64,000 nt of DNA from an uncultured Kordiimonas sp. (lineage in GTDB: Bacteria > Pseudomonadota > Alphaproteobacteria > Sphingomonadales > Kordiimonadaceae). The position numbers were made by a program, and so were the translations under genes. Below the pieces are notes generated by a model. It was not told where the DNA came from. It saw nothing but the letters and a program-made list of their open reading frames with translations, and did not search any database. This document shows, piece after piece, positions 27,294 to 58,973 of the stretch. The stretch spans positions 930,001-994,000 of the forward strand of contig CANNDZ010000001.1 in assembly GCA_947503575.1 (NCBI GenBank), given 5' to 3'. The stretch's first letter is position 1; the number at the start of each line of letters is the position of its first letter.

Positions 27294-27326
27294 AAAAAAA
27301 GAATGCCGCGTGTGGCGGCATTCTGA
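27294..27326 (-). terminator. Rho-independent terminator of the chemoreceptor gene
   Basis: On the minus strand, AGAATGCCGCC and GCGGCATTCT form a stem of about ten pairs around a four-base loop, directly followed by seven Ts (the A-run at 27294-27300 on the plus strand). It lies about 30 bases after the chemoreceptor stop codon and so insulates obgE from it. Confidence 0.88.
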
Positions 27327-51142: not shown

Positions 51143-52090
51143 TCAGCTTGTCAGACGGCCTGCTTCTTTGCGCAGGCGTGCAGGCGTGATCCCCAAAACC
51201 TTTTTAACCGTTGTTGTCATATGGCTTTGCGATGCAAAACCGCAGTCATAGGCAATTTGGGCCAGGCACAGGCTGCTCTCGATCAACAGGTTTTTTGCTT
51301 TGTGGGCGCGCCGGTACATCACATAGGAATGAGGGGCCATGCCCACGGTCTCCTTGAAGCGCCGGGAGAAATGATAAGGGCTCATGGCAGCCACCCGTGC
51401 CAGCACATCCAAAGACAAATCCTGATCCAGATGGTCTTCGATATAATCCACTGTCAGGCGAATGCTTTTTGGCGGCAGCTTACCAAATTTGTCCAGCCGT
51501 GGTTTGTCTCCAAACCGGGAAAACCGCTTCAGCAAGGTTTCTGAAAACAGCAAAGCCCAGCCGTCCAGCGCCATACCGCCAATTTCATCGTCCCCAAATA
51601 CAGACGCATTAGCGGCATTCATTAAATTGATCATCGACTTGTCATGGGTGTTTGTAAAACGTTCCAGGTCATCCAGCTTGAAGTCGATGCCAAACATCGA
51701 CTCTGCAACATCCTGCAACAGCATGGTCGACAGATAATAATGGCTGAAGGTTACAACATCGTCGCTGAACCACGCCTGTGGCTCGCGCCAGTCATGTAGG
51801 GACGCACTACCAGCCACGGCTTTAATGTCTGGTTCTTCTGCGGTCCACACCGGTCCGCCAACACAATGATGGAACAGCCCCAGGAAATTGGGATCCGGGT
51901 TGGTAACGCTGGCTTTCAGCGGTGTGCGCCACAGCGTTGCCTTTAATGTTGTTTCCGCATCCAGCCCAACGGCCTTCAACAGGGAATCCGGTAGCTTTCT
52001 TCGCCCCTCAATCGCAGCGACCGGGGTTTCACTTGTCGCGTGCGTATCCAGCGCGCGGTGTAGCGTCATCGTATCAACAGGCTCGTTCAT
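51143..52090 (-). CDS. AraC family transcriptional regulator
   Basis: A 315-residue regulator. The C-terminal AraC/XylS DNA-binding domain (about 210-315) has both helix-turn-helix units: LDVLARVAAMSPYHFSRRFK and LCLAQIAYDCGFASQSHMT, followed by VKKVLGITPARLRKE. The N-terminal 200 residues are an effector or dimerisation domain that I do not recognise. ATG 52090 has GGAG at good spacing. Upstream lies a leader with a hairpin terminator on the same strand (52257-52286), so expression could be attenuated. The neighbouring iron-uptake-type operon is a plausible but unproven target. Confidence 0.85.
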   Translation of the reverse strand: MNEPVDTMTLHRALDTHATSETPVAAIEGRRKLPDSLLKAVGLDAETTLKATLWRTPLKASVTNPDPNFLGLFHHCVGGPVWTAEEPDIKAVAGSASLHDWREPQAWFSDDVVTFSHYYLSTMLLQDVAESMFGIDFKLDDLERFTNTHDKSMINLMNAANASVFGDDEIGGMALDGWALLFSETLLKRFSRFGDKPRLDKFGKLPPKSIRLTVDYIEDHLDQDLSLDVLARVAAMSPYHFSRRFKETVGMAPHSYVMYRRAHKAKNLLIESSLCLAQIAYDCGFASQSHMTTTVKKVLGITPARLRKEAGRLTS

Positions 52091-52219
52091 CGGGTCGTCT
52101 CCGGGCCGAGCGCGCGTGGGAGGTGCAAAGAAGATGGTCTCACAACATACAAGTGGCGCCGCAATTTTAAACATTGCGCCGTCACAAAGCTTAAGGGGCT
52201 GCCAGCATTACAGGCTGCC

Positions 52220-52294
52220 CTATGTATGACCACAGCTATCCCCCCTTACGGACAGCAAAAAAACGATGCCAAACCATATTGGCATCAGGGCCAT
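52220..52294 (-). CDS. Possible 24-residue hydrophobic leader peptide
   Basis: ATG 52294 to TAG 52220 encodes 24 residues with a hydrophobic core (MPIWFGIVFLLSV). GAGGA lies 12 bases ahead of the ATG, a little far. The reading frame runs straight through a terminator hairpin, so it would be made only on read-through transcripts, or the terminator could be an attenuator controlled by its translation. No similarity is known to me; confidence is low. Confidence 0.2.
   Translation of the reverse strand: MALMPIWFGIVFLLSVRGDSCGHT
52257..52286 (-). terminator. Orphan rho-independent terminator in the araC leader
   Basis: GATGCCAA (52265-52272) pairs perfectly with TTGGCATC (52279-52286) around a six-base loop. 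On the minus strand the stem is followed by G and seven Ts. No annotated minus-strand gene ends here: the nearest upstream gene is on the plus strand. It must therefore end a short RNA or attenuate araC. Confidence 0.75.
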
Positions 52295-52335
52295 CAACGG
52301 TATGATTCCTCGGTCATTCCTCTGAAAGCGCCCTG

Positions 52336-52365
52336 ATTATGCAGGTTTACACACAGTTCCGTCAA
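52336..52365 (-). promoter_or_regulatory. Minus-strand promoter ahead of the orphan terminator
   Basis: On the minus strand TTGACG (complement of 52360-52365) and CATAAT (complement of 52336-52341, preceded by TG) are 18 bases apart. Predicted start is near 52329, about 70 bases before the orphan terminator. Confidence 0.5.
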
Positions 52366-52484: not shown

Positions 52485-52976
52485 ATGACGCTGACCTGGA
52501 CTTTCCTGGGGTCGGGGCACTCAGGCGACAGTTTTCCGCAAGATGTTCCAGCGAAGATGATCCGCGAGGTAAGAGACATTGCCGCCCAAAAAGGGGGACG
52601 TGTTGGCTCCTTGAAGGTGGTTTTGCGCCTGCACAATGGCAGTTGCTGTGGTGCCAGCTACGAGATTGAAAACCTGCGCACTGGCCAGGCAGCGGCAACC
52701 GTCTTTATGTGTTGGGGGGACCATGGCTCTGAACACTGGTGGCATGCAGCCGTAAACCGGCAGCAGGAAAATGCCCAAGACACTGACATGGTTTGTGGAA
52801 CGTCGGAAGGTGAGCCGCCCAAGGTGCCCTGGATGGCGATTGCTGAGTTTTCTGAAGAACCGCGCCTGACCGCCAAACAGATAGACCTGGAACTCGCAAC
52901 CGCCTGGGCGCTGGTGTCGCTGTACGGCGATGAAACCTACCCCGAAGTGGGCGCTGTGCAGCGCTATCTGGCGTAA
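52485..52976 (+). CDS. Hypothetical protein of unknown family
   Basis: A 163-residue soluble protein I do not recognise. Visible features: VRDIAAQKGGRVGSLKVVLR followed by LHNGSCCGASYEIENLRTG with adjacent cysteines, then VFMCWGDHGSEHWWHAAVNR rich in Trp and His, and a C-terminal helical segment LATAWALVSLYGDETYPEVG. The clustered Cys, His and Trp could form a metal or haem site, but no known motif is present. AAAGG precedes the ATG. It is convergent with the PepSY gene, four bases from its stop, and divergent from araC. Confidence 0.6.
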   Translation: MTLTWTFLGSGHSGDSFPQDVPAKMIREVRDIAAQKGGRVGSLKVVLRLHNGSCCGASYEIENLRTGQAAATVFMCWGDHGSEHWWHAAVNRQQENAQDTDMVCGTSEGEPPKVPWMAIAEFSEEPRLTAKQIDLELATAWALVSLYGDETYPEVGAVQRYLA

Positions 52977-52979
52977 GCA

Positions 52980-54593
52980 TTATTCCGCTGCCAGTGGCTG
53001 GCGTATTTGTGCTTCCTCTTCTGTCTGTGCTTCAGCTCTTTTGCGCCCACTATCATTCTGTGACCGTTGTTTGGGTAACCTGCGGGAAACCCATAGCATC
53101 ACGACCCCGAGTGTCAGCAGCCCCACATCCACGTAGCCTGCCACTGTGTGTCCTGCGCCGAAAACGTCGGGCAGGCCGCCACCTGTTTTTGCAAAATTAA
53201 GGGCAGGCAAGCAAGCGAACAAAAGACCTGTTAAGCCCATCAAGTCCCGGGTGGCCTTATAGTCATTGCGGCGCAGGAATGCATATAAAATTGAGAGCGC
53301 CACAAGCGCAAAATACATATTGCCCGTAGCAGTCAGGCGCGCCGCTTCCGCTCCCCAATACAGTTTATCCAGTGTGAATATACCCGCTGTTGCCAGTGGA
53401 AACCCTAAACAAACCCCGGTTACAATGTGGCCTATTCGGCGGTAGGTGGCGGGGGGTTTACTGCCAGCGTTTCCGTGCAAGCGCCGCTCCAGCCACATAA
53501 TCAACCCCAGTGCCGTTATAATCGCTAAAGACAACCCAAGCACAAAATACAGCAACTTCAAACTGATGCCGCCATAGGTGCCATAATGGATAGGGGCAAA
53601 TGCGTTGCCGACCCTGAAGGGGGCACTAATCACCTCGAACTGGTCCCCATCAATATGCTCGCCAGTAACACCATTCAGTTCAAAGGCATCAATCGACGCC
53701 AGTTCAGTGTCCGGATCAAAAAAGACATCATACCGTGCGTTCTGGTCGCCCCAATTCCGCAGGATCACCCGCATCGGTACAAACCCACTGGTTGGCTCGC
53801 GCATCCTGCCCACCTCATCCAATGAATACATGGGTCGTTCGATGCCCGCCGGCTCAAGCGGTTTGCCAACCACCGCCTCAATCAGTGCTTCCTGATCGCC
53901 TTTGAAAGACAAGAGAGCAACAATCGGTGCCAGAATAGCAACCACTCCGAGGTAAGCGCCGGTGACAGCGATTGCAGCGTGGAACGGCAACCCCCAAAGG
54001 CCAAGAACCTTGTGCGCATCCTGCCATTTCAAACGCACAGACCGGAAAAATCTGAGAGTAAAAAGCTCTTGCGTCAGTTTGGTATGGATAACGATACCTG
54101 TCACAATGGCCAGCATCAAAATTATACCGGCCACGCCCACCAGCGCCCGGCCCACCTGCCGCCCGCCCAACGCTTCTGGCCACATAAGGTCCCGGTGGAA
54201 ATCCAAAATCCATTCTGACAGGCCCGCACCGCGCTCAGGCAACAGTTCTCCTGTGCTCGCGTTCCACCGTGCTTCAATAAACTCTACTGGTTCCCCATCA
54301 AAGTGGGTGCCGATCATGCCCATATAAAATGGGGACAGCGATGTGGGGTAATCGAGCCGGGCAAATTCAAGGTCGTCGCGGGTGTTTGCCGTTACCCAGC
54401 TTGCAAAGGTGTCATGGATTTCTACCCGCTGTTCCGGCACTACAAGACGTTTTGCAGGGTCTTCCCATGTATGAATTTCATGATCAAACAGGGCAAAACA
54501 GCCTGTGATACATACAATGAAAACAAACAACCCCAACGTAATGCCAGACCAAGAATGCAGGTCATAAATTCTAAGATGTCGTTCGCGATCCAT
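52980..54593 (-). CDS. PepSY-associated transmembrane protein (iron-uptake type)
   Basis: A 537-residue inner membrane protein of the PepSY_TM family, members of which are often encoded beside siderophore receptors and act as ferric-siderophore reductases or accessory proteins. TM1 is in GITLGLFVFIVCITGCFALF, with a PepSY-like periplasmic region after it. Further spans are near 170-190 and 210-235, FVLGLSLAIITALGLIMWLE near 360, and four more at the C-terminus. Conserved histidines (HLRIYDLHSW, FHRDLMW, HKVLGLWGLPFHA) could bind haem. The cytoplasmic tail is charged. Last gene of the TonB-receptor operon. Confidence 0.85.
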   Translation of the reverse strand: MDRERHLRIYDLHSWSGITLGLFVFIVCITGCFALFDHEIHTWEDPAKRLVVPEQRVEIHDTFASWVTANTRDDLEFARLDYPTSLSPFYMGMIGTHFDGEPVEFIEARWNASTGELLPERGAGLSEWILDFHRDLMWPEALGGRQVGRALVGVAGIILMLAIVTGIVIHTKLTQELFTLRFFRSVRLKWQDAHKVLGLWGLPFHAAIAVTGAYLGVVAILAPIVALLSFKGDQEALIEAVVGKPLEPAGIERPMYSLDEVGRMREPTSGFVPMRVILRNWGDQNARYDVFFDPDTELASIDAFELNGVTGEHIDGDQFEVISAPFRVGNAFAPIHYGTYGGISLKLLYFVLGLSLAIITALGLIMWLERRLHGNAGSKPPATYRRIGHIVTGVCLGFPLATAGIFTLDKLYWGAEAARLTATGNMYFALVALSILYAFLRRNDYKATRDLMGLTGLLFACLPALNFAKTGGGLPDVFGAGHTVAGYVDVGLLTLGVVMLWVSRRLPKQRSQNDSGRKRAEAQTEEEAQIRQPLAAE

Positions 54594-54602
54594 ATTGCCC
54601 TC

Positions 54603-54911
54603 CTAAACCATTGGTTCATTGGTGAAGACAATGGCTGCACTCGCCAGTGTCAGTGCTATTAACCCTGCAGTCACACGCTGCGGCTTTTCTGCCCAGTAAA
54701 CCCAAAACTGCAAAGCCACCCAGATGAAGGGAACCATCAGTGTTATGGTAATTGCCTTGTCTGGAAAGTTTGCCGGAAAAACCAACAGCATGGCGGCGGT
54801 AAAAAACAGTGTGGCACTCAAAGACCAGAATAAGATGCTGGTCAGGCGTGGTCTGCGCCACGTACTCACAATAATCAAAAGAGCAAAAAAGCCAAGAACA
54901 CCATACAGCAT
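54603..54911 (-). CDS. Small membrane protein, DUF3649-like (tentative)
   Basis: A 102-residue protein with three predicted membrane spans: VLGFFALLIIVST, LFWSLSATLFFTAAMLLVF, and ITLMVPFIWVALQFWVYWAE followed by a fourth weaker one at the C-terminus. Size, location and the LMVPFIW-x-ALQFWVYWAE pattern resemble DUF3649-type proteins that accompany PepSY and TonB siderophore genes, but the match is not certain. Its ATG overlaps the upstream gene's stop by one base, so it is coupled in the operon. Confidence 0.5.
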   Translation of the reverse strand: MLYGVLGFFALLIIVSTWRRPRLTSILFWSLSATLFFTAAMLLVFPANFPDKAITITLMVPFIWVALQFWVYWAEKPQRVTAGLIALTLASAAIVFTNEPMV

Positions 54912-55255
54912 CACAGCCCCTCCATAAATGATACGGTCAGTATTAAACTGGCAAATGCGGCCACCGGCAGCCCGGTTCTGCGGTGCAGCTCTGGGCGCCA
55001 TGCCGCCAGCATCAGGCTCAAAAGCCCAGTGGCGACAAACATGGCAAGCCAATAGGCGACGCCTCGCTCGGCCCCATTGATAGAAGAAAAAAAGACCAAA
55101 GACAGTGACACCAGCCCCCAGCCCAAAAGGCGTGTAAGCTTTTGCAGTAAAGGAGATGCTTTAACCTTGGGCCATCCGGTCCGGTTTTTACCAGCGTGAT
55201 AAAAGGCAAAAACCCCAAGATATAAAAGCAGGCTGGCGAGCATTACGGTTAGCAT
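54911..55255 (-). CDS. Small membrane protein, DUF3325-like
   Basis: A 114-residue protein with four spans (VMLASLLLYLGVFAFYHAG, LLGWGLVSLSLVFFSS, AYWLAMFVATGLLSLMLAAW and a C-terminal one). The layout resembles DUF3325, a family found with PepSY proteins and TonB receptors for siderophores: a short first helix, a basic loop, GWxLLxLSL, a G-x-YWL-x-MF helix, then WRPEL. It starts 11 bases after the TonB receptor gene. Role in iron-siderophore handling is inferred from that context. Confidence 0.6.
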   Translation of the reverse strand: MLTVMLASLLLYLGVFAFYHAGKNRTGWPKVKASPLLQKLTRLLGWGLVSLSLVFFSSINGAERGVAYWLAMFVATGLLSLMLAAWRPELHRRTGLPVAAFASLILTVSFMEGL

Positions 55256-55266
55256 ACTCTCTTCCC

Positions 55267-57453
55267 CTAGAAGTCCATATCCAGACGAATGGCCCAGGTA
55301 AGTTCATCTCCCAATCGCGCAGAGTTCTGGTTCACCACATTCAGTGTCGTGAAATAGTCTTCATCAAGCAGGTTTCTTACATAGCCGGAGATGCGAATAC
55401 TCTCGGAGATTGAATAACCAACTCTGGCATTAACAAGCGTGCGACTGTCAATCACGTTACTGGAGAAGTTGTCGACTTCATTGAAACTTGAAGACTGATA
55501 ATTCACATCAACGCCACCAAAGAACCCACTTTCATGGGTATAGTCAAAACCACCGTTCAGGGACAGGCGCGGTGCAAACGGAAAGCGGTTGCCATTGAAG
55601 TTGGGCTGGTTAGCTTCACTCTCCGGCTGGTTTGGGTCAAAATCGGCGTTCACAAAATCATTGAATTCTGCAACCGAGTAGCCAATGCCTGCGTAAATCT
55701 CAAACTGATCGGTCACGCGGTAAGTCAGATCGCTCTCCAAACCGTAAAGTGTCGACGAACCAGCATTCACCGTTTGTGAGAAGTTTTCGAAGGGCGCAGG
55801 CAGCGGTGTTGGTGTTTGTTGATCTGACCAATCAGAATAATAAATGTTGGTGTTCCAGCTCACACTGCCATCCAGCAACGTTACGCGGGAAGAAAGCTCA
55901 TAATTCCACAGATACTCTGGGTCAAACTCAGAAAGAGAGCCATCCACGAAGTTGATTTCAGCGCCACCAGCGCGGTAAGCGCGCTGCACGACAAACGCAA
56001 ACGTAGCGTCATCATTTGCATTCCAGCGTACACCAAATTTTGGCAACCAGGCATCAAACGTTGCATTGGTGATGCTTTCATCCGTTCCTTCCAGTGCGCG
56101 CAAAAAATCCAGTTGCGGTGGCAGGTCGCCGATGATGGTTGTCACTGTATTCTGAAAGTTATCCTGTTCTTCCCGGTCGTATCGCAGACCAAACAACAGA
56201 TCGAATTGTTCACTTAGTTCATATTCGCCGTCAAGGAAGCCTGCATAGTTTTCCGCCTCACCAACGCGCGCTGATTGCCGACCAATCGAAATCGTCGGGG
56301 GAATGGCCGGGTTGATAATGGAACCCGGAACAATGAAGTCATCTTCAAAACCTTCCTCGGTACTCACATAATAGAAGCCAAGGCCGAAGGACAGGCGATC
56401 ACCCTGGTATCGAATCCGGAATTCTTCAGAAAAAGCTTCGTCATCACCGGTGCGATCAAGTTCCGCAAGGGGCAGGGCGGTCAGGTCAAAATCTTCCTGC
56501 CGCAGGTAGTCAGTTGTCTGAAAAGTTGTGATGGATTGAAGTGACACCCGATCGCTTACTTCCCACGTTGCGTTGACGGACTGAATAAATGTCTCGGTTC
56601 CTTCGCGTCCAGGCGTGTTATACCCGACTTCACGAACAACTTCGTCGGCGCTCAACACTTCGCCGGCATCATTTGTAGGGGAAACAATGTCTTCGCCTGC
56701 GAAGTTTTCGGTATAAGAGGACGTAGAGATAATCTGGAAGTTTTCCGTTGGCTTAAACAGCAGCTTTAGCCGCGTATTCCAGAGTTCTGTGGCATCCGCC
56801 TCCGCATCCAGAAGAGTGTTGCGAATGAACCCATCCGTTTCCCGGTATTCTGCGGCAACCCTAAACGCTAGCTTTTCATCAATCAGCGGGCCACCAAAGG
56901 CCATGGCCCCATGGCGCTGGCCGTTGTTGCCTATTTCTGCTCTGGCTTTGGCTTCCCACTCAAATGATGGGTCTTTTGTCCTAATGTAGATCGCCCCGGC
57001 GAGGGCGTTTCTGCCAAAGTTGGTTGATTGCGGACCCCGGTAGACTTCGACTTGACCCAAATCCCATGACCCTAATGGCCCGAAGAAAGTGGTTTGGTTC
57101 CCTAGTGGTGCATCGTCAACATAGATTGTAAGCGTTGCACCCGATCCAGCCACTCCGCGCTGGTCAACGCCGCGAATTGCAAACCCCAAGCCCCCGAAGG
57201 ACGATGTGACGTTCGGGATACGGTCCACAATGTCATAGAGGTCCACAAGCGGTTCCCGCTCAATCTCAGCGCCGGTTTCCACGGTGACGCTTGAGGCGAC
57301 ATCGCGCAGCGTGCGATCAAATTTCTGACCGACAACAATAATTTCGTCCATGTGCTGATTGTCGCTGTCTGCATCCGCCTGATTTGCGGCTGCTACACCT
57401 GACGCGACCAAAAGTGCGGTTGCGCATACCCCTGAATAAAGAATGGCCTTCAT
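55267..57453 (-). CDS. TonB-dependent outer membrane receptor
   Basis: A 728-residue outer membrane receptor. From ATG 57453 (GAGGACG ahead) it has a signal peptide (YSGVCATALLVASGVAAA), a TonB box-like DEIIVVG, the plug domain (about 50-165: VDLYDIVDRIPNVT, GFAIRGVDQRGVAGSG, QVEVYRGPQSTNFGRNALAG) and a 22-strand barrel. It ends in a C-terminal aromatic strand (LTWAIRLDMDF), the outer membrane insertion signal. The accompanying PepSY and small membrane genes point to a siderophore. A Fur-like sequence and a palindrome lie just upstream. Confidence 0.92.
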   Translation of the reverse strand: MKAILYSGVCATALLVASGVAAANQADADSDNQHMDEIIVVGQKFDRTLRDVASSVTVETGAEIEREPLVDLYDIVDRIPNVTSSFGGLGFAIRGVDQRGVAGSGATLTIYVDDAPLGNQTTFFGPLGSWDLGQVEVYRGPQSTNFGRNALAGAIYIRTKDPSFEWEAKARAEIGNNGQRHGAMAFGGPLIDEKLAFRVAAEYRETDGFIRNTLLDAEADATELWNTRLKLLFKPTENFQIISTSSYTENFAGEDIVSPTNDAGEVLSADEVVREVGYNTPGREGTETFIQSVNATWEVSDRVSLQSITTFQTTDYLRQEDFDLTALPLAELDRTGDDEAFSEEFRIRYQGDRLSFGLGFYYVSTEEGFEDDFIVPGSIINPAIPPTISIGRQSARVGEAENYAGFLDGEYELSEQFDLLFGLRYDREEQDNFQNTVTTIIGDLPPQLDFLRALEGTDESITNATFDAWLPKFGVRWNANDDATFAFVVQRAYRAGGAEINFVDGSLSEFDPEYLWNYELSSRVTLLDGSVSWNTNIYYSDWSDQQTPTPLPAPFENFSQTVNAGSSTLYGLESDLTYRVTDQFEIYAGIGYSVAEFNDFVNADFDPNQPESEANQPNFNGNRFPFAPRLSLNGGFDYTHESGFFGGVDVNYQSSSFNEVDNFSSNVIDSRTLVNARVGYSISESIRISGYVRNLLDEDYFTTLNVVNQNSARLGDELTWAIRLDMDF

Positions 57454-57472
57454 AACGTCCTCAAGTTTGAAA

Positions 57473-57483
57473 CTAATAATTAG
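57473..57483. promoter_or_regulatory. Palindrome CTAAT-A-ATTAG before the TonB receptor
   Basis: An odd-length perfect palindrome of 11 bases, 20-30 bases ahead of the receptor start, in an A/T-rich stretch with the Fur-like site. Candidate operator. Confidence 0.4.
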
Positions 57484-57510
57484 TCGCATAAATAAGCCAA
57501 TCAAAAAGGA

Positions 57511-57683: not shown

Positions 57684-58862
57684 ATGGCCGATAAGCCTGT
57701 TTTTACATGGGAAGATCCCTTTCTCCTGACCGAACAGTTGAGCGAAGAAGAGCGCCTTATTCAGGCATCTGCTTACGAGTTTTGCCAAAGCAATCTGATG
57801 CCGCGCATTCTGGAAGCCAACCGCCATGAGACGTTTGACCCTCAGATCATGCGCGAGCTGGGCGATGTGGGCTTGCTGGGTGCTACCATCCCAGAGGAAT
57901 ATGGCGGCGCAGGGGTTAATCATGTGGCCTACGGTTTGATTGCGCGCGAAGTGGAGCGGGTGGATAGTGGTTATCGCTCTGCGATGAGTGTTCAGTCGTC
58001 GCTTGTGATGCACCCCATTCATGCCTACGGCAGTGAAGACCAGCGCCAGAAGTATCTGCCCAAGCTGGCAAGCGGTGAAATGATTGGCTGTTTTGGCCTG
58101 ACGGAGCCTGACCATGGCTCTGACCCTGGCGGCATGAAAACCCGCGCTGAGGCTGTCGATGGCGGCTACCGCCTGACAGGTGCCAAAATGTGGATTACCA
58201 ATAGCCCGATTGCCGACATTGCGGTGGTTTGGGGCAAGCTCGATGGCCGCATTCGCGGGTTCATCCTCGAGCGCGGCATGGAAGGGTTCTCCACCCCCAA
58301 AATTAAGGGCAAGCTGTCGCTCAGGGCGTCGATCACCGGCGAAATTGTTATGGACAATGTGTTTGTGCCTGAAGAAAACCTGCTGCCGAACGCCAGCGGT
58401 CTGGGCGGGCCGTTTGGTTGTTTGAACAAGGCGCGTTATGGCATCGCGTGGGGTGCGCTGGGGGCGGCAGAGTTTTGCTGGCATGCGGGGCGACAGTATA
58501 CGCTGGACCGCGTCCAGTTTGGCAAGCCGCTGGCGCAAACGCAGTTGGTGCAGAAAAAACTGGCGGACATGCAAACCGAAATCACGCTTGGCCTGCAGGC
58601 GTGTTTGCGGGTTGGCCGGATGCTGGACGAAGGCACGGCAGCGCCCGAAAACATTTCGCTGATCAAGCGTAACAGTTGCGGCAAAGCGCTGGATATCGCG
58701 CGCGACGCCCGCGACATGCACGGCGGCAACGGGATTTCAGACGAATATCATGTGATGCGCCATATGGTGAACCTGGAAACGGTGAACACTTATGAAGGCA
58801 CGTATGATATTCACACGCTGATTTTGGGTCGGGCTCAAACCGGCCTGCATGCTTTCTTTTAG
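57684..58862 (+). CDS. gcdH: Glutaryl-CoA dehydrogenase
   Basis: FAD enzyme that oxidises and decarboxylates glutaryl-CoA to crotonyl-CoA in lysine, tryptophan and glutarate catabolism. The 392 residues match GcdH rather than general acyl-CoA dehydrogenases: [58 protein letters not shown], and [19 protein letters not shown]. The catalytic base Glu is at about 371 in [10 protein letters not shown]. It is followed 111 bases later by a CoA transferase gene, with a large inverted repeat between. Confidence 0.95.
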
Positions 58863-58876
58863 TGAATAAGTCGGCA

Positions 58877-58945
58877 CCAGCCCTCTCCGCCATCCGACCA
58901 CCGCACGGAATTACACTTGGGTGGCCGGTTGGCGGAGAGGGCCGG
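58877..58945. repeat. Large inverted repeat between gcdH and the CoA transferase gene
   Basis: A left arm (58877-58902) and a right arm (58920-58945) can pair over 25-26 positions with only three mismatches, around a 17-base loop. The core is CCCTCTCCGCCA against the complement TGGCGGAGAGGG. There is no T-run. It is far longer than an ordinary terminator stem and begins 14 bases after the gcdH stop. Confidence 0.8.
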
Positions 58946-58973
58946 AGCAGCCTAAAGCTTCAAAGAGGATGAT

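Follow-up and report, generated by a model that had tools for sequence, protein, structure and literature searches.

In Escherichia coli, the stop codon of the evgL leader overlaps the start of the regulator gene evgA; translation of the leader is required for the regulator, and control acts on the leader (PMC11210196). The B12 riboswitch leaders of ppe2 and metE in Mycobacterium tuberculosis are reported to combine premature termination with a translated open reading frame (ORF) under riboswitch control, from which the downstream gene is reached by termination-reinitiation (PMC11260477). Here, we analyzed a locus upstream of an araC-family gene from an uncultured Kordiimonas sp., located within a stretch of 64,000 nucleotides (the whole of which is referred to as the window), and compared it with G003 (JAEPQB010000001.1), a Kordiimonadaceae metagenome-assembled genome of the same genus and the closest relative holding the locus.

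Similar to evgL-evgA, the locus exhibits a short putative leader ORF with a stop codon overlapping the start codon of a gene for a transcription regulator (PMC11210196). The E. coli system is controlled by CsrA, whereas no CsrA gene is present in the window genome or G003. No sequence relation between the two leaders is claimed, and EvgA is not known to be an AraC-type regulator. With the ppe2 and metE leaders (PMC11260477), the araC leader would share a structured RNA, premature termination, a controlled translated ORF, and reinitiation. Ligand and aptamer are known for the former, whereas the araC leader matches no Rfam family. Like orphan riboswitch candidates and cis-regulatory motifs in Rfam, the leader is located between a promoter and a gene and shows conservation and partial covariation as an RNA; unlike them, it occurs in two genomes only, with no ligand clue and no Rfam match. 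By analogy with evgL-evgA and with ppe2 and metE, each step of the mechanism considered below appears feasible.

The reading that we favor, with moderate confidence, is that the araC mRNA has a structured 5′ leader with three hairpins, which would control a leader ORF coupled to araC and to which a terminator (i.e., attenuation) would have been added in the window species only. Its features are as follows.

52336 to 52365, minus strand: putative sigma-70-type promoter, TTGACG - 18 nt - CATAAT (in G003, TTGACT - 18 nt - CATACT)
52290 to 52329, minus strand: hairpin H1 of the predicted consensus fold, with apical loop CCGAGGAA; contains block A (52298 to 52325)
52265 to 52286, minus strand: predicted hairpin H2, with an 8-bp stem and loop UAUGGU; compensatory changes versus G003
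52257 to 52263, minus strand: run of seven Ts that would turn H2 into an intrinsic terminator, in the window species only (in G003, TTAACC)
52235 to 52256, minus strand: hairpin H3 of the predicted consensus fold, GCUGUCC-(GUAAGGGG)-GGAUAGC, holding the Shine-Dalgarno (SD) sequence AAGGGGGG (52247 to 52240)
52087 to 52233, minus strand: putative leader ORF of 48 codons with a GTG start; its TGA stop overlaps the araC start (ATGA)
51143 to 52090, minus strand: araC-family regulator gene, 315 amino acids (Pfam HTH_18, 2.9e-24; HTH_AraC, 5.8e-21)
52485 to 52976, plus strand: divergent gene, 163 amino acids, family unassigned; co-occurs with araC and the element

Promoter and terminator-like hairpin upstream of araC

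The start of araC most likely lies at 52090 rather than at the listed ORF start (52174), since the G003 ORF begins at the equivalent methionine. Upstream of araC, an initial annotation of this DNA had described a promoter pair (52336 to 52365) and a strong hairpin with seven Ts (52257 to 52286) on the minus strand, with no gene ending there, and both are present as described. The pair TTGACG-18-CATAAT at 52365 to 52336 is followed by the hairpin and its Ts at 52286 to 52257 (TGATGCCAATATGGTTTGGCATCG plus TTTTTTT), with a perfect stem of 8 to 9 bp (52286 to 52265) preceding the T run (52263 to 52257). No minus-strand gene ends at the hairpin: the nearest one upstream ends at 52980, and the plus-strand gene at 52485 to 52976 sits between this end and the hairpin region. 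From the sequence, we infer that minus-strand transcription starts near 52329.

Consensus counts over the surrounding 5 kb revealed no enrichment of promoters (4 versus 3.6 expected from shuffles) or terminators (7 versus 5.9). A strict terminator test, which demanded a perfect stem (8 bp or more) plus seven or more Ts and compared the whole window with shuffled windows, yielded 3 sites versus 0.09 per shuffled window, and the hairpin at 52286 to 52257 was among them. The other two, its sole equals in the window, were found on the minus strand at 27300 and 29684.

A GC-rich hairpin directly 5′ of a U-tract upstream of araC, as expected for an attenuator, is present in the window; G003 lacks it, and no terminator-like site was found at the G003 locus, which reads TTAACC in place of the seven Ts. 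If the locus were a simple intrinsic-terminator attenuator of araC, its conserved function would be termination at H2. The strong hairpin with seven Ts and no gene end fits this idea, but the termination signal is not conserved although the pairing is, and two highly conserved blocks (A and B, below) would be left unexplained; we consider it very unlikely. The broad form of the proposed leader or attenuator for araC was supported, with promoter hexamers and spacing, hairpin pairing, and araC synteny kept in G003, but the U-tract and terminator were not kept.

Conservation and predicted fold of the proposed leader RNA

Comparison with G003 revealed ~105 conserved bases, 30 of them beyond the "terminator." The interval that had initially been singled out, 52220 to 52365, happens to enclose this entire element. 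Block A (52325 to 52298) is identical in G003 at 28/28 bases and block B (52256 to 52227) at 29/30, and the distance between them is 41 bases in both species. Elsewhere, identity amounts to 38% in the leader 3′ of block B, 39% in the promoter spacer, and 57% in the upstream region, compared with 72% for the araC coding DNA. Within 20 kb of synteny with G003, the 28-base run of block A is the third-longest exact match and the longest one placed outside coding sequence, both longer runs being located in coding sequence. At the promoter, 5/6 bases of the −35 and 5/6 of the −10 hexamer are identical and the spacing of 18 bases is the same, although only 7/18 spacer bases match; the retained hexamers and spacing point to transcription of the minus strand from a start immediately 5′ of block A. 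In this comparison, no part of the element is conserved less than the conspicuous terminator, which corrects a natural misreading of the locus.

The H2 stem reads GATGCCAA/TTGGCATC in the window versus GGCA(g)CCGA/TCGGTGCC in G003. In the one pairwise comparison on which the covariation case rests (window genome versus G003), structural alignment by hand, with a single bulged G, yielded four double substitutions, with 8/8 pairs kept and an identical TATGGT loop; among 5670 right arms at the same distance, 3 would pair in this way (5e-4). Automatic alignment with RNAalifold gave three double changes plus one change from G-C to G-U. As judged from these two sequences, pairing of H2 is conserved and termination is not.

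The pairs of H1 and H3, both predicted from the consensus fold, are invariant between the two species. One pair of H3 is G-U and would read A·C on the opposite strand, which favors a minus-strand RNA. The RNA folds better than shuffled sequences (z, −3.3 to −1.9); in a longer stretch of G003, H1 was absent from the lowest-energy fold. In addition, UGACC in block A can pair with GGUCA in the GTG region, at energies that exceed the best fold by 4.8 (window) and 1.8 (G003) kcal/mol, and this competing pairing is a possible switch in the modeled folds. H1 and UGACC/GGUCA compete, forcing the latter leaves H2 formed, and no clear antiterminator of H2 was seen in the predicted folds.

The conservation pattern also bears on two products that had been suggested initially. 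The first, a small RNA of 70 to 75 bases, would fail in G003, where nothing would end the RNA, and stays conceivable in the window species. There, an independent RNA of ~70 to 75 bases acting in trans, composed of H1 and the H2 terminator, would have a full promoter-to-terminator unit and folds well (z, −3.3). However, such an RNA should keep its own terminator, and G003 has no T-tract or any terminator-like site, even though the promoter is kept; moreover, conservation is as high in the 30 bases 3′ of the terminator as in those upstream. We regard this reading as quite unlikely. A CsrA sponge of the CsrB/RsmZ type was rejected: PF02599 is absent from the window genome (G000) and G003, and was found in control genomes.

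The second product, a hydrophobic peptide of 24 residues read across the terminator, is not conserved. The ORF exists (TTG/ATG...TAG, 52297 to 52220), but its frame is broken in G003 by one-base indels and early stops, and the stem covaries like an RNA helix. More generally, a conserved product consisting of a 24- to 25-residue hydrophobic peptide (52297 to 52220) or of a 7-codon ORF, MTEESYR, is highly improbable. Open frames exist for both, and the MTEESYR codons fall within an identical block; yet besides the broken 24- to 25-residue frame, MTEESYR stops after 7 codons in the window and runs for 16 more in G003, neither identical block contains synonymous changes, and the GAGG lies just one base 5′ of the ATG. 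Plus-strand coding of PPYGQ-x14-RYDSSVIPL, which is open in both species, was rejected as well, its middle residues being unrelated and its ends without synonymous changes.

The putative leader ORF and its proposed link to araC

Block B ends in AAGGGGGGATAGCT-GTG-GTCA, with the SD located six bases 5′ of the GTG in both species. The duplex of this SD with the anti-Shine-Dalgarno has an energy of −11.7 kcal/mol in the window and −10.9 kcal/mol in G003, which places it in the top 0.2 to 0.3% of random 20-mers. The own site of araC is weaker (−6.6 kcal/mol in the window and −3.8 kcal/mol in G003), and clearly weak in G003. In both species, no frame other than that of the GTG stays free of stops as far as araC. 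Its equivalent in G003 is a 46-codon GTG ORF that ends 16 bases inside araC, and the 18-base difference in length between the two species preserves the frame. The chance of such an open frame was 0.19 and 0.24 separately and ~0.045 jointly. Of the features expected of a coupled leader ORF, an SD and start codon of its own and a stop that overlaps or adjoins the araC start were found. The leader peptides of the two species are not alike, which suggests that, if the leader ORF matters, the act of translation is what would count. Between block B and araC, 136 bases in the window and 118 in G003 are unconserved. It is therefore unlikely that the ribosome-binding site of araC is controlled directly, and a link to araC would depend on coupling or termination.

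Blocks A and B might instead be DNA sites for a protein, e.g., AraC regulating itself and the divergent gene at 52485, with the 41-base spacing serving looping or cooperative binding. Two near-identical blocks separated by precisely 41 bases in either species, a direct repeat of 11 bases (GAGGAATSA) within block A, and the joint occurrence of element, araC, and divergent gene are all consistent with such an operator. It would, however, account neither for an H2 stem that changes its sequence yet keeps its pairs and loop nor for the strong SD and start codon at the end of block B, and a position downstream of the promoter is possible but less common for operators. We consider it unlikely, albeit less so than the other alternatives.

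Under the favored structured leader, minus-strand transcription would begin at about 52329 and produce an araC mRNA leader with hairpins H1, H2, and H3. The loop and 3′ arm of H3 would carry the very strong ribosome-binding site, shortly 5′ of the leader-ORF GTG, and the fold of H1 to H3 would set how often ribosomes enter the leader ORF, possibly switched by the alternative UGACC/GGUCA pairing. Translation of araC would likely be coupled to the leader ORF through the overlap of its stop with the araC start. In the window species, part of the transcripts would probably stop at the U-tract of H2, resulting in attenuation.

Distribution of the element and neighboring genes

The element, araC, and the divergent 163-amino-acid gene were found together in 2/20 genomes of the genus (the window genome and G003), between which the wider region is syntenic. 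Altogether, the element had 2 members in 1,504 genome look-ups, repeats included. A covariance model (R1, built from the two sequences) revealed no further members in samples of the family, order, class, and phylum. The weak matches inspected (17 to 24 bits) were at chance level, most of them breaking pairs or needing large inserts, and those with ORFs listed overlapped or abutted coding sequence. An exact search for the cores of blocks A and B in viral contigs gave no match, nor did the element match anything in plasmid and phage collections. In Rfam, neither the element nor the whole window matched a family, cobalamin or other; even at E values up to 10, the sole exception was a chance snoRNA on the opposite strand (E 0.19; 17 bits versus a cutoff of 90). 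A known aptamer, as expected for a riboswitch, was thus not found in Rfam. It is rather doubtful, though conceivable, that the leader is a new ligand- or protein-binding RNA (orphan riboswitch-like) that is narrowly distributed in Kordiimonadaceae and controls an AraC-type regulator via a coupled leader ORF, with one helix serving as intrinsic terminator in one species and not in its sister.

If true, the locus would add an unlisted cis-acting RNA from an order of marine Alphaproteobacteria that has received little study, and a conserved helix that acts as terminator in one species, with pairing alone kept in the sister, would represent a step in the gain or loss of an attenuator. The scale is small, comprising two genomes and one regulator.

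The AraC proteins of the window genome and G003 are 74% identical, and among GTDB representatives G003 held the only orthologous araC. In a relative, three tandem genes for AraC-type regulators (L120; G025:C8, 141 to 2886) are ~40% identical to this araC and have other surroundings. The divergent 163-amino-acid protein (52485 to 52976) had no match in Pfam or NCBIfam, and within the family it occurs only in the window genome and G003, both of which carry the element and this araC. Upstream, the segment from 52980 to 57504 encodes a TonB-dependent receptor and a PepSY_TM protein on the minus strand; it has no DNA match in the syntenic block of G003, whereas both sides are kept. Between two genes further along, a near-perfect palindrome of 94 bases (58862 to 58955) was observed, with a predicted fold of −53 kcal/mol (z, −6.1). 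It is single-copy in the window genome, while G003 contains at least 10 related copies (74 to 88%) on both strands, i.e., the palindrome belongs to a dispersed repeat with numerous copies in G003 only.
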